The translations under genes were made by a program, and so were the position numbers. The notes beneath the pieces are model-generated. The model made no database searches and had not been told where the DNA came from. It saw only the letters and a list, made by a program, of their open reading frames with translations. A DNA stretch of 64,000 nucleotides, from assembly GCA_001189275.1 (NCBI GenBank), contig CP012158.1:1603704-1667703 (forward strand), written 5' to 3'. Below are positions 39,607 to 43,892 of the stretch, piece by piece. Every line of letters begins with the position of its first letter. The stretch's first letter is position 1. The stretch comes from Pyrobaculum sp. WP30. GTDB taxonomy: Archaea > Thermoproteota > Thermoprotei > Thermoproteales > Thermoproteaceae.

Positions 39607-40026
39607 ATGCCTTTGGTGAAACGTAGAGAGCTCCCGTTGAGAGTTTCCGACATAATGGTTAAGGATGTGGTGACGGCCAAGGAAAACGACAAGATCAGAG
39701 ACGTGGCTATTCGCATGTATGAGAAGAAGATCGGCAGCGTGGTGGTCGTAGACGACGAGGGGAAGCCGATAGGCATAGTCACTGAGAGAGACATGGTCTA
39801 CGTAGTGGCGCGGGCGCTCGCCCCTGACACGCCTGTGTGGATGGTTATGACGGAGGATCCCATTGTGATAAATGAAAACGCCCTGGTTACAGAAGCCATG
39901 GAGAAGATGCGTGTACAAAACATTAGGCATCTGCCTGTGGTAAACGCCGAAGGCAAACTAGTGGGCATGATATCCTTTAGAGACATAGTGGACTTCACCG
40001 CGGTGTTGCTGTCCCTCGGTAAATGA
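39607..40026 (+). CDS. Twin CBS-domain protein
   Basis: A 139-residue protein made of two CBS repeats: VSDIMVKDVVTAKENDKIRDVAIRM with GSVVVVDDEGKPIGIVTERDM, and VMTEDPIVINENALVTEAMEKM with RHLPVVNAEGKLVGMISFRDIV. Such modules bind adenosine nucleotides or SAM and regulate partners. A TATA box (tttaaataac) lies about 22 nt upstream. The stop overlaps the start of the DUF309 gene by 4 nt, so the two are an operon and may work together. Confidence 0.92.
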   Translation: MPLVKRRELPLRVSDIMVKDVVTAKENDKIRDVAIRMYEKKIGSVVVVDDEGKPIGIVTERDMVYVVARALAPDTPVWMVMTEDPIVINENALVTEAMEKMRVQNIRHLPVVNAEGKLVGMISFRDIVDFTAVLLSLGK

Positions 40027-40541
40027 GATACCTCCTCATAGCGGAAAACCCTGGTTTTTCCGTTTCGCACAGAGAAGAACTCTTACGTAGGTTGAGAGCT
40101 GTCTTGCCGGTCATTGCCATGAGGATAGCCGCTGGGCACGTCGAAGTTGATGTAAAGACCGACGACTTGGAGAAAGCTGTGGCTGAGGCGGAGAAGGTCG
40201 TGGGGAGGGTCATGGAGGTGGTCGACATAACCTTTGAAGACGTAGGCGGCGGGGTGGAGAGATACGTCCACTTGTTTAATAGAGAGAGGTTTTGGGAGGC
40301 TCACAACGCCTTAGAGGGTCTCTGGAGGAAGACTAGAAACGCCACTTTGCAAGGTCTCATAATGTTAGCCGCCGCGTTTGTGAAGCTACAGGAGGGCCAG
40401 CCGGATAAGTTCGAGAGAATGTTGAAGGAGGCACTCCACTATATGAATGAAGATGTTGGGTGTATAAAGATGGGGCGGCTCCTGGAAAAGGCGGAGAAGG
40501 CGTTGCTGGAGAAAACACCTTTCAAAATAGAATGCGCTTAA
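40023..40541 (+). CDS. DUF309 domain protein
   Basis: A 172-residue protein. The N-terminal ferredoxin-like part (MRYLLIAENPGFSVSHREELLRRLRAVL and VEVDVKTDDLEKAVAEAEKVVG) is joined to a C-terminal DUF309 helical domain with the signature FNRERFWEAHNALEGLWRKTRNATLQGLIMLAAAFVKLQEG. The function of DUF309 is unknown. It is complete here, but its first and last few codons recur as a deletion remnant at 42481-42531. It originally lay tail-to-tail with sir2, judging from the sir2-like remnant right after it. Confidence 0.85.
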   Translation: MRYLLIAENPGFSVSHREELLRRLRAVLPVIAMRIAAGHVEVDVKTDDLEKAVAEAEKVVGRVMEVVDITFEDVGGGVERYVHLFNRERFWEAHNALEGLWRKTRNATLQGLIMLAAAFVKLQEGQPDKFERMLKEALHYMNEDVGCIKMGRLLEKAEKALLEKTPFKIECA

Positions 40542-40550
40542 CCTTAGCCA
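40516..40550. repeat. Left copy of a duplicated DUF309/sir2 junction
   Basis: A 35-nt segment covering the last codons of the DUF309 gene matches 42506-42540 at 32 of 35 positions. In reverse it reads as the end of sir2 (codons for KVKRILF and stop, at 40522-40545), and the same frame continues for about 45 nt more as ARDDAVRAVMA, resembling the sir2 C terminus. The left copy therefore keeps a whole DUF309 gene and a tail fragment of sir2. Confidence 0.8.
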
Positions 40551-40590
40551 TGACCGCCCTCACGGCGTCGTCCCGCGCGCAAAAAGCCTT
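40522..40590 (-). pseudogene. Remnant of a sir2 3' end
   Basis: Reverse-strand codons ARDDAVRAVMAKVKRILF plus stop align with the authentic sir2 end GKVEEVLPALVARVKDILF. Identity is partial beyond the last eight residues, so the fragment has diverged or decayed. The rest of the sir2 copy is missing; sequence from about 40590 to 40717 holds nothing I can identify, apart from a short open forward frame ending FDEVSEGHVYDLSM. Confidence 0.55.
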
Positions 40591-40717
40591 TGATGAGGTG
40601 AGCGAGGGACACGTCTACGACTTGTCCATGTAGGGATCAAAACGCCGAAGGAAAACAGTTTAAGACGGCGGGAGGGGGTTGGCGAAAAGGTTGGGCGGCG
40701 GTGTTTCGTCTGTCTCT

Positions 40718-41638
40718 CTAGAGTATCTTCACGTATTCCCTCGCCGTCGCGGCAAAAGCCAATAGCCCCTTGGGTCTATACACCTCCTTCATTTTGTCTT
40801 CATATGTTTCGTATCGCTTAAATTCCAGCTCTAGCTTGACCTCCTTCACGGCGCCGTTTTGGGCGCAGTACGCCTTCGGCGGGTTTAGGGAGAGACAAGC
40901 CTCCGACCCGTCCTTTGCCACGTATGTCTCCACCGTGTAGGGGTGGAGGATGCTCATCGGGTTCCGCCTCACCACCTCCACCATCCACGGAAATCTACGC
41001 ATAACCTTAGCTATTTCAACCAGCCTATCCCTAAGATCCAGCCACTTCCTAACCCACTCCACGCCGAAGGCTCCCAGCTCCGGCCACTCCTTCAGAAGCT
41101 CCTCCACGGGGTCGATCTTGACAACTAAAGCAGGCTCAGGCGGCTCATTCATCTTCTCCACCTCCTTCTTGTAGTCCTCTATAATCTGCCTGACACAGTC
41201 CTCCACTGCGCGGCAATGGGGCTGGTACAGCTTTACTCCATTCACGACGGGGCCACAGTAGACGTCGTATTGATTAACCCCCACACCCACCTTCACATAT
41301 TCATACCACAGCCCCACGTCATAACGGTCAGACAACTCCCACAAGGCGTCAGCCACTTGTTGCTTGATACAGCCGCCCGCGTCCTCATCCCTACGCCTCC
41401 TCCACCTCTCCTTCACCTCCCACCTCCTCCTATCCCTTGAGTGAACCCACACCCTATACCGCACGCATACTCCTTTGCGGCACCCCTCAGCCGTCAGCAT
41501 CCCCTCGTAGAGGCATCCGTCACTTGTACACCACTCCTTGGGCGGAGGCTCATACTCCACATACTGAAGAATGCCAAGTTTCTGCGGCAGTTCAAAAGCG
41601 GCGGCCGTGGCCCTAATCCTTCTGGCGGCTGTCGTCAT
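40718..41638 (-). CDS. Unknown 306-residue protein on the inserted island
   Basis: Not recognised. The N-terminal third contains several cysteines (EWCTSDGCLYEG, GCRKGVCVRY) and a strongly basic stretch WEVKERWRRRRDED. The middle has another Cys group (GGCIKQQVADALWELSDRY, YCGP, HCRAVEDCVRQ), and the C-terminal half is helical, with PVEELLKEWPELGAFGVEWVRKWLDLRDRLVEIAKVM and ending REYVKIL. Basic and Cys-rich parts hint at nucleic-acid or metal binding. The ATG at 41638 overlaps the stop of a truncated upstream gene (ATGA), so it was once the second gene of an operon whose promoter end has been lost. Confidence 0.65.
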   Translation of the reverse strand: MTTAARRIRATAAAFELPQKLGILQYVEYEPPPKEWCTSDGCLYEGMLTAEGCRKGVCVRYRVWVHSRDRRRWEVKERWRRRRDEDAGGCIKQQVADALWELSDRYDVGLWYEYVKVGVGVNQYDVYCGPVVNGVKLYQPHCRAVEDCVRQIIEDYKKEVEKMNEPPEPALVVKIDPVEELLKEWPELGAFGVEWVRKWLDLRDRLVEIAKVMRRFPWMVEVVRRNPMSILHPYTVETYVAKDGSEACLSLNPPKAYCAQNGAVKEVKLELEFKRYETYEDKMKEVYRPKGLLAFAATAREYVKIL

Positions 41639-41745
41639 ATCCACTCCTTCAAGGCCGATATGACCACCTCCACCGCCGCCCTCTCGATTAGGTAGGTACC
41701 CTTCTTGTGCCGCCTCGCGAGTCCTTTCTCCACCAGCCTCACAGA
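41635..41745 (-). pseudogene. Truncated 3' end of a winged-helix-like gene
   Basis: Reverse-strand codons VRLVEKGLARRHKKGTYLIE then RAAVEVVISALKEWI and stop look like the wing and last helix of a winged-helix DNA-binding protein. The stop overlaps the ATG of the 306-residue gene by 4 nt, the mark of a genuine operon partner. Upstream of about 41745 the frame turns into antisense of the PaREP2-like fragment, so the 5' part of the gene is gone. Confidence 0.45.
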
Positions 41746-41754
41746 TTCACCTCT

Positions 41755-42464
41755 ACCGCCCCCGACAGCATACGGCGGGAGGCGCAACGGCTTGAGAACA
41801 TGGGCCTGGAGGAGGGCAAGCATTTCACGGTGAAGATGCCGGAAGGGGACCACGATGGCTATGTGTATGTCCGTAGGGAGGGCCTTGAGCGCGCCGCGTG
41901 GCTCTCCGTACGCGGCGAGGGAGAACAGCAGAAGCTGGCGGCGGAGTTTATAGAGTACATACTCCAGAGGGCGAAGGAGAGGGGCGACGACGTTCACGAA
42001 AAAGCCAGTAAGATCGTGGAGGAGGGGATGTCAAGGGCTCCCTAACGCTAAAGGGCTTCGAGAAGGAGGTCGAAGCGGACGGCAGAAAACACAAGGTGAG
42101 GGAGGTAAGCGGAGGTGCCGAGCTTGAGGAAAGGTAGGGCGACAAGAAGTTGCTGAGGATTAAGATAACGGCTGAGGTGGACGGCATAAAGAGCGAATAC
42201 ACGATTACCTGCGGCAGGTATGGAAAGCTCAACGCGGCCTTGGGACGCGCCTACGCCAGGGCCGACGTCCCCGGCGGCAGGAAGGCAGACGCCGAGAGGC
42301 TCGCCGCCCTTATAAAGGCCCTCACGGGAAGGGAGCCGAGGATAATTGAGAGGGGCGACGGCCAGATAGTGTTGGAGTGCTATGGAGAGCACCTAGACGG
42401 CTTCGCCCGCTACGCCGAACTCGCAGAAGCCATAAGGAGATGGCAGGAGGAGACAAGCCGGTGA
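41755..42464 (+). pseudogene. PaREP2-like repeat-family gene, broken
   Basis: Pieces in two frames read as one protein resembling the Pyrobaculum PaREP2 family: EAQRLENMGLEEGKHFTVKM, then YVYVRREGLERAAWLSVRGE and AAEFIEYILQRAKERG, a frameshift near 42030, then GSLTLKGFEKEVEADGRKHKV, an in-frame TAG at 42135-42137, and LLRIKITAEVDGIKSEYTIT through ADAERLAALIKALTGREPRI to the end WQEETSR. The N-terminal part of the family is absent and the gene is not translatable as a whole. Family recognition is from memory of these proteins, not from a search. A candidate agent or passenger of the local rearrangement. Confidence 0.7.
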
Positions 42465-42480
42465 GCGTTGGCGTCACACT

Positions 42481-42531
42481 ATGAGGTACCTCCTCATGGG
42501 CTCCCCACCTTTCAAAATAGAATGTCCTTAA
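42481..42531 (+). pseudogene. Internally deleted DUF309 remnant
   Basis: ATG to TAA in frame encodes MRYLLMGSPPFKIECP. Its first five residues match the DUF309 start (MRYLLIAENPG) and its last residues match the DUF309 end (TPFKIECA); about 155 codons between are missing. At nucleotide level the first 18 nt match 16 of 18 and the end falls in the 35-nt duplicated junction. This is the right-hand partner of the duplication that encloses the island. Confidence 0.75.
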
Positions 42532-42540
42532 CCCTAGCCA
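42506..42540. repeat. Right copy of the duplicated DUF309/sir2 junction
   Basis: Matches 40516-40550 at 32 of 35 positions. Here the reverse strand carries the true end of sir2 and the forward strand the deletion remnant of DUF309. Distance between the copies is about 1.99 kb. Confidence 0.8.
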
Positions 42541-43276
42541 CCAGCGCAGGCAACACCTCCTCTACCTTCCCCCTAAGTATATGATCTGCGAAGAAGTCGT
42601 AGAAGGTCTCGTCGGCGTTTATAATCACCAACTTCGCCCCACGTTTCTTGGCAGTAATCGGTAGCTGGTTGGCGGGATACACAGCCAGAGAGGTGCCCAC
42701 CGCTAGAAAAACCTCAGCCATCTCGGCAAGCATAAAGGCCTCTCTCAACGCTTGTTGTGGAAGAGGTTCGCCGAAGAAAACCACATCTGGCTTCAAGACG
42801 CCTCCGCATTTGGGACATCTAGGCGCGCCGGCAGTCCGCCACCTCAACGCCTCTGTGAGGGGGTATCTCGCGCCGCATTTGACACATACGGCGTCTCTCA
42901 GCGCTCCGTGTAGCTCAATCACGTTTTTACTACCCGCCGCTTGGTGTAGCATGTCTACGTTTTGCGTAACCACGGCGCATAACTTCCCCAGTTTTTCAAG
43001 CTCAGCAAGCGCATAGTGTGCCGGGTTTGGCTTCACGTCGAAGGCAGGCAGTAGATACTGCACGAAGAGGTCCCAAACCTCATCTGGGTTCTTGTAGAAG
43101 TACTCTACGTCGAACTTCTCGGGATCTACAACTCTCCAAACGCCCTGGGGGCCTCTGAAGTCGGGGATTCCACTTGGAGTAGACACACCAGCGCCGGTCA
43201 AAGCTACTGTGCAGCTGGACCTTGCGATGAGTGAGGCAACCTCGTCGAGGTCTTCAGTTGAGAAACCCACCTCCAT
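42512..43276 (-). CDS. sir2: Sir2-family NAD-dependent protein deacylase
   Basis: A sirtuin of 254 residues that removes acyl groups from lysines using NAD. Motifs: GAGVSTPSGIPDFRGPQG for NAD binding, VTQNVDMLHQAAG, catalytic HG in IELHGALRD, four zinc cysteines in CVKCGARYP and CPKCGG, and the GTSLAVYPANQLP end of the Rossmann fold. In Sulfolobus, Sir2 deacetylates the chromatin protein Alba. Its N-terminal codons overlap the upstream membrane-protein gene by 73 nt, so they probably share a transcript. Confidence 0.95.
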   Translation of the reverse strand: MEVGFSTEDLDEVASLIARSSCTVALTGAGVSTPSGIPDFRGPQGVWRVVDPEKFDVEYFYKNPDEVWDLFVQYLLPAFDVKPNPAHYALAELEKLGKLCAVVTQNVDMLHQAAGSKNVIELHGALRDAVCVKCGARYPLTEALRWRTAGAPRCPKCGGVLKPDVVFFGEPLPQQALREAFMLAEMAEVFLAVGTSLAVYPANQLPITAKKRGAKLVIINADETFYDFFADHILRGKVEEVLPALVARVKDILF

Positions 43277-43839
43277 ACAGAGTAGAGCCAGTAGAAGTAT
43301 AAAAATCCCACTGTAACAAGACTTATAATTACGTAAAACGTAGCGCTGAAAGGCCTAAAACCGACTGACCCGGTGGCGACTCTCACGAGATAGAGGTCGC
43401 GTGTAAACACGTCGATGAGATACACCCACGCCGCGAACCAAACCAGCGCCAGCGCAAACACCCCCAGAGCCAAAGCCCCGACACCCAAGAACCTCCCCAC
43501 CTCCTCAGGTCTTGTGATCTGCACCTCTCCAGGCGTAACTGCGGGAAAAAGAGACGTGAGCTGGAGCCAGAGAAACGCAGAGAGCAACTGCGTGCCTACC
43601 CCCGACAGCACGAAGAGCCAGATGGCGGCTGTGTACTCCGCGCCGAGCCAGACGCCGGCAAGCCGGTCCCAATAGGCGTTTTTCAGATCTTCCAACTCAC
43701 GGTGCGTACGGGTAAGCACGACGCCAATAAGCGCTACGGAGGCTATGCTGGCCGCCGCGGAGGCCGTTGTTTGCCCGGCGATGCTAAGCCCCAGAGAGGC
43801 GGCGTAGAGGATCAACGCGGCGTATATATACGGGGTCAT
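43204..43839 (-). CDS. Multi-span membrane protein of unknown function
   Basis: A 211-residue protein with about six hydrophobic segments: two at the N terminus (IYAALILYAASLGLSIAG and SIASVALIGVVL), a charged loop RTHRELEDLKNAYWDRL, then AAIWLFVLSGVGTQLLSAFL, LGVGALALGVFALALVWFAAWV and FYVIISLVTVGFLYFYWLYSV. No transporter signature is evident. The C-terminal 24 codons overlap sir2. A TATA-like region (tatatacca, reverse) lies close to the start. Confidence 0.75.
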   Translation of the reverse strand: MTPYIYAALILYAASLGLSIAGQTTASAAASIASVALIGVVLTRTHRELEDLKNAYWDRLAGVWLGAEYTAAIWLFVLSGVGTQLLSAFLWLQLTSLFPAVTPGEVQITRPEEVGRFLGVGALALGVFALALVWFAAWVYLIDVFTRDLYLVRVATGSVGFRPFSATFYVIISLVTVGFLYFYWLYSVWRWVSQLKTSTRLPHSSQGPAAQ

Positions 43840-43892
43840 GCATATTAACGCAGGCGGTGGTATATAAGAGTGACGAGGATGAACCCCACCGA

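Follow-up and report, generated by a model that had tools for sequence, protein, structure and literature searches.

The small island that lies between the DUF309 and sir2 genes in a 64,000-nt stretch of the Pyrobaculum sp. WP30 genome (hereafter the window) is very probably a PaREP2 element that inserted long ago, duplicated its target and has since decayed; for the insertion we infer staggered nicks followed by fill-in. A 35-nt direct repeat at the DUF309/sir2 junction flanks the island (40516-40550 and 42506-42540, Table 1), with 32 of 35 positions identical. When the two flanks are compared with each other, this repeat yields a local alignment score of 26, against a maximum of 13 for shuffled sequence, and its score is reached rarely or never under cross-flank and pseudo-element nulls. 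The junction repeat proposed in a preliminary description of this DNA is real.

Table 1. Features of the DUF309/sir2 junction and the island, in window coordinates
Feature	Coordinates	Strand	Remarks
DUF309 gene, intact, left neighbour, 172 aa	40023..40541	+	Pfam PF03745, E 5.5e-17; syntenic in nine other Pyrobaculum genomes
Left target copy	40516..40550	+	3′ end of DUF309 and ~9 nt from the sir2 end that overlaps it
Left edge of inserted DNA	40551..40635	-	degenerate fragment of the 308-aa gene, residues 235-269, one stop; tblastn E 4e-4
308-aa gene (A gene) of the PaREP2 element, intact frame, outward-facing	40718..41644	-	79% aa identity to the L039 copy
Truncated 3′ end of partner gene	41641..41741	-	last ~33-35 residues; overlaps the A-gene start
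Internal deletion junction	41741..41742		blast boundaries; other copies have 1-3.3 kb here, including the LAGLIDADG-like part of PaREP2b
PaREP2b 3′-end remnant	41742..42464	+	last 240 residues (921-1160 of the L047 protein); two frames, 64% and 60% aa identity
DNA between PaREP2b stop and 35-nt repeat	42465..42505	+	not common to other element copies
Second piece of right target copy (or templated filler)	42481..42497	+	first 17 nt of DUF309
Right target copy	42506..42540	+	includes the sir2 stop codon
sir2-type deacetylase gene, intact, right neighbour, 254 aa	42512..43276	-	Pfam PF02146, E 1.1e-50

Both junction copies carry one whole gene and a remnant of the other, much as had been described. 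On the left, the whole DUF309 gene (PF03745) is accompanied by a sir2 remnant, which had been taken to run to 40717. Mapping of the breakpoints retains 40516-40550 as DUF309 and sir2 sequence and places the end of sir2 homology at about 40550; the adjoining 40551-40635 is island sequence, a piece of the 308-aa gene rather than of sir2, with blastn matches to loci L042, L043, L048, L049 and L052. On the right stand the whole sir2 gene (PF02146) and the mini-frame MRYLLMGSPPFKIECP, whose 42481-42497 part is the start of DUF309, matching the window's own gene (40023-40039) at 16/17 positions and that of the closest relative, G008, at 17/17. For comparison, the longest exact match to the G008 locus among random 41-mers from the window (n = 2000) was 15.

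PaREP2 is a multi-copy element, and the island is one of its copies in a decayed state, with the middle missing and the PaREP2b end broken. Used as a query against its own genome it gave 45 matches, mostly in two blocks that meet at 41741/41742. Other copies have 1 to 3.3 kb between these blocks, and the window copy therefore lacks the middle of the element. The gene in the left block had been given 306 residues and has 308; a Pfam scan of it returned no significant match, and it is weakly similar to a protein in the Pyrobaculum genome that contains L086 (30% over 161 aa). The truncated end next to it was correctly read as that of an operon partner, as its last 33-35 residues recur at 70-82% in front of the 308-aa gene in L039, L040, L041, L042 and L047. 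The right half of the island is the 3′ end of PaREP2b, from the known PaREP2/PaREP2b repeats of Pyrobaculum (PF07775). This gene is indeed frameshifted (near 42027), and it also has an in-frame TAG at 42135-42137. Its DNA is 75-76% identical to other copies in the same genome; its two fragments score 17.0 and 12.8 bits against a curated PF07775 cut-off of 20.4, which several same-genome copies pass.

Among the copies of this genome, conserved sequence extends from the stop codon of one outward-facing gene to approximately that of the other, with little in common outside. No terminal motif common to these copies was found at the ends near the two stop codons, so the true ends of the PaREP2 element stay undefined. 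In the genome that holds L086, L088 and L089, the full-length element consists of two left-facing genes followed by a right-facing 351-aa gene and a PaREP2b of >1000 aa; the L086 element stops at its repeat, and those at L088 and L089 reach further left. PaREP2b is patchily distributed, being absent from G002, G004, G007 and G010 and present in tens of copies in other Pyrobaculum genomes.

Comparison with relatives defines the site before insertion. The alignment proposed in the preliminary description recovers an empty site in nine other Pyrobaculum genomes, in which the CBS, DUF309 and sir2 genes are present and the latter two are directly convergent, with no island. In G008 (locus L010), DUF309 and sir2 overlap by 20 bp (1498-1517), and the duplicated stretch corresponds to approximately L010 1493-1526, that is, the whole overlap and a few nucleotides on each side. 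The ancestral site was this convergent pair with overlapping ends. Because the duplication spans the overlap and one copy was kept with each gene, both DUF309 and sir2 are whole despite the insertion. All three derived changes lie in the left target copy, and the right copy is identical to the G008 empty site from 42507 on. The right copy probably once extended back to the DUF309 start, a duplication of at least 528 bp, and later lost ~475 bp; alternatively, a 35-bp duplication was accompanied by a templated 17-nt filler.

The flanks of other copies show that the window is not an isolated case. From five Pyrobaculum genomes we took loci around PaREP2b matches and also island-like copies. For every element, the 800 nt on its left were compared with the flank on its right, with cross-locus pairs serving as the null. 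Flanking repeats at p < 0.01 were detected in 18 of 85 loci, including two, L108 and L129, at which the repeats coincide with tRNA genes. These two were dropped as target duplications. In G003 the flanks of L129 lie apart. Strong direct repeats (score ≥ 18.5) flank 14 of the 83 remaining PaREP2-type loci; of 1000 control intervals taken from other parts of the window, 0 have them. Among the 14 is L147, where the match detected was a second piece of the target copy and not the 44-bp repeat; L105 has a 24-nt flanking repeat (compared with distant relatives). The 69 of 83 loci with no strong repeat may owe this to age, or not every insertion may produce one. These locus-specific repeats, found in several species, support the earlier suggestion that the island is a footprint of PaREP spread.

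For eight insertions, the window included, an empty site in a relative allowed the duplication to be measured as the overlap of the element's two flanks on the relative's single copy. The target duplications range from ~35 to 165 bp, and those in which one copy has lost internal sequence are longer. L127 and L147, both compared within a genome pair ~96% identical there, give overlaps of 41 and 44 bp, respectively. On G008 the overlaps are 165 and 42 bp for the two elements of L040 and 62 bp for L044. The L045 overlap is ~60 bp and adjoins a 103-nt repeat, and that of L086, compared with three species, is 38 bp for two of them and 47 bp for the other. As long, variable duplications also occur at these other PaREP2 copies, they are part of how the element inserts. 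PaREP2 copies are thus dispersed, present or absent at orthologous sites and associated with target site duplications, as in transposable elements. Deletion within one target copy, previously proposed for the window, is also seen at L147, where the left copy lacks ~150 bp kept in the right copy; the pattern would be the same as that in the window, whose right copy would lack ~475 bp. Beside the right target copy of L147 (6589-6696) lie ~115 nt of the left flank, inverted and 82% identical, which suggests template switching during insertion.

At all eight insertions, the neighbours on both sides are essentially intact. In the window, as at L147, two convergent genes overlap at their 3′ ends, and these ends are the target; the target at L127 is a divergent promoter region of ~50 bp. 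At L040, L044, L045 and L086 the duplicated stretch includes the ends or starts of genes, which leaves each neighbour with a copy of its own; the final codons of a methylase at L086 fall just outside the repeat, inside the element. Since these eight sites are survivors, selection alone could give the sparing pattern, with no need for targeting.

Together, these findings suggest how such insertions may arise. The duplications point to nicks in the two target strands at positions separated by tens to hundreds of bp. The PaREP2 element would be joined in at the nicked target, and filling of the gaps by host polymerase would leave the target duplicated on both sides. Selection would then keep mainly those insertions whose duplication spares both neighbours, and in the window the right target copy would probably have lost ~475 bp after insertion.

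A candidate for the nicking step is PaREP2b, in which we detected a LAGLIDADG-like domain. A PaREP2b protein from the window's genome (L039) matches LAGLIDADG_3 at 24.1 bits (Pfam cut-off 22.5). When a profile of 28 PaREP2b sequences was compared with one of Thermoproteaceae LAGLIDADG proteins, the probability of a match was 87-91%. It did not exceed 4.9% for gap-trimmed column shuffles and stayed below 1% for reversed, sir2 and 308-aa controls; column shuffling without trimming produced a spuriously strong match, and the gap-trimmed controls were relied on instead. All 23 PaREP2b members that extend to the first motif have its GDG unchanged, in a family with a mean column identity of 25%, and the second LAGLIDADG-like motif is degenerate. 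The domain and its catalytic acidic residue are found in PaREP2b of relatives, and the window copy is without this region. AlphaFold models of PaREP2b made without an alignment were poor (mean pLDDT 49), and because of this their PDB matches (E > 0.2, I-DmoI, I-OnuI and I-AniI among them) were set aside and not used as evidence.

On this sequence evidence PaREP2b is the best candidate for the nicking enzyme, an assignment that we make only tentatively. LAGLIDADG enzymes cut with 4-nt staggers, far shorter than the PaREP2 duplications. Possibly, PaREP2 represents a distinct class of archaeal transposable element, mobilized by its own LAGLIDADG-family protein through widely staggered nicks that duplicate tens to hundreds of bp, a proposal about which we remain doubtful. 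If it is correct, the long duplication would let PaREP2 enter compact, even overlapping, gene junctions with neither gene broken. There is a real chance that the mechanism is new.

PaREP2b may also be the C-terminal end of giant open frames, as at L151 (31-9723) and at loci in G003 and G009; these reach >3200 aa in Thermoproteus sp. CP80 and up to 4725 aa in G003. Weak matches to LPD3 (large polyvalent protein) occur in 5 of 25 PaREP2b members. A genome scan with a single PaREP2b protein found one relative, in Thermoproteus sp. CP80, and two scans of viral contigs found none.

Other explanations bear on the mechanism or on the insertion itself. PaREP2 DNA could be captured passively, when host end-joining repairs a staggered or resected break and fill-in and template switching make both the duplications and the local fillers; no insertion enzyme of the element's own would be required. 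This account, which rivals the proposed mechanism and not the insertion, fits the variable duplication lengths, the lack of inverted repeats and the locally copied pieces beside repeats (the inverted 115-nt left-flank match at L147 and the 17-nt DUF309 start in the window). Capture would, however, have to take up one family repeatedly, with limits close to the same pair of stop codons in the window's genome, and to do so tens of times in certain species but never in others, and we regard it as rather unlikely. A conventional transposase acting in trans, of the kind that makes direct repeats of 8-514 bp in IS1634 and IS1549 (PMC2266710), would account for the long duplications and make PaREP2b irrelevant to insertion. 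We find this improbable, given that nine elements have no terminal inverted repeats and that no transposase match was found among the PaREP2 proteins scanned.

The preliminary description left room for either a tandem duplication or a large target duplication with an insertion, followed by deletion, and this outline is supported. Taken alone, the two junction copies in the window would fit a tandem duplication of the DUF309-sir2 junction on which PaREP2 landed later by chance. Duplications nevertheless adjoin PaREP2 at the seven other sites with an empty-site comparison, and none of the 1000 control intervals has a strong repeat, making such a coincidence very improbable. We therefore prefer target duplication, because repeats flank other PaREP2 copies and the empty sites of relatives are single-copy. 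Homologous import of a junction from a diverged strain, with no insertion, would explain why the right copy is closer to G008 than the left copy is. Both flanks nonetheless align to G008 at similar identity and the island's family is found genome-wide, leaving import with hardly any credibility.

A PaREP2 insertion with target duplication, the reading we favor, can be set beside known systems. PaREP2b has already been called a putative transposon, and many regions in which P. oguniense differs from P. arsenaticum harbour PaREP2 and other PaREP elements (PMC3558965). The long duplications and empty sites turn this putative transposon into one with visible insertion events, in a family present in tens of copies in some Pyrobaculum genomes whose way of moving has so far been unexplained, and the LAGLIDADG-like domain names a candidate enzyme for that movement. 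In the searchable literature, outside which most subscription journals lie, we found no description of PaREP2 target duplications, of the sparing of neighbours or of the LAGLIDADG-like domain. An element that enters overlapping genes and leaves them unbroken would show how very compact genomes tolerate insertions.

The closest parallels each differ in some respect. IS1634 and IS1549 likewise make long target duplications of variable length (8-514 bp), for which there was no mechanistic model at the time of review (PMC2266710). They belong, however, to an IS family with transposases and terminal repeats, whereas PaREP2 showed no terminal inverted repeats (best score 8 over 120-nt ends of nine elements, the window's included) and no Pfam match to a DDE transposase in the element proteins scanned. 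LAGLIDADG homing endonucleases share with PaREP2b a LAGLIDADG_3-type domain with an invariant GDG. Unlike these homing systems, PaREP2 lies outside introns and inteins, its eight sites being gene junctions or shared gene ends, and it occupies many unrelated gene junctions with long duplications. Casposons are archaeal mobile elements with target duplications and an enzyme from outside the usual transposase families (PMC9939771), a description that PaREP2 would share, its enzyme being a candidate. They have ~15 bp duplications, terminal inverted repeats and Cas1, by contrast, with no sign of these in PaREP2.

Next to the island, the gene adjoining sir2 (window 43229-43892) is 71% identical to a relative at another locus of this genome (L048 8310-8966), with a short stretch at 96%. 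That relative is fused to a further C-terminal domain, which recurs in a neighbouring gene.
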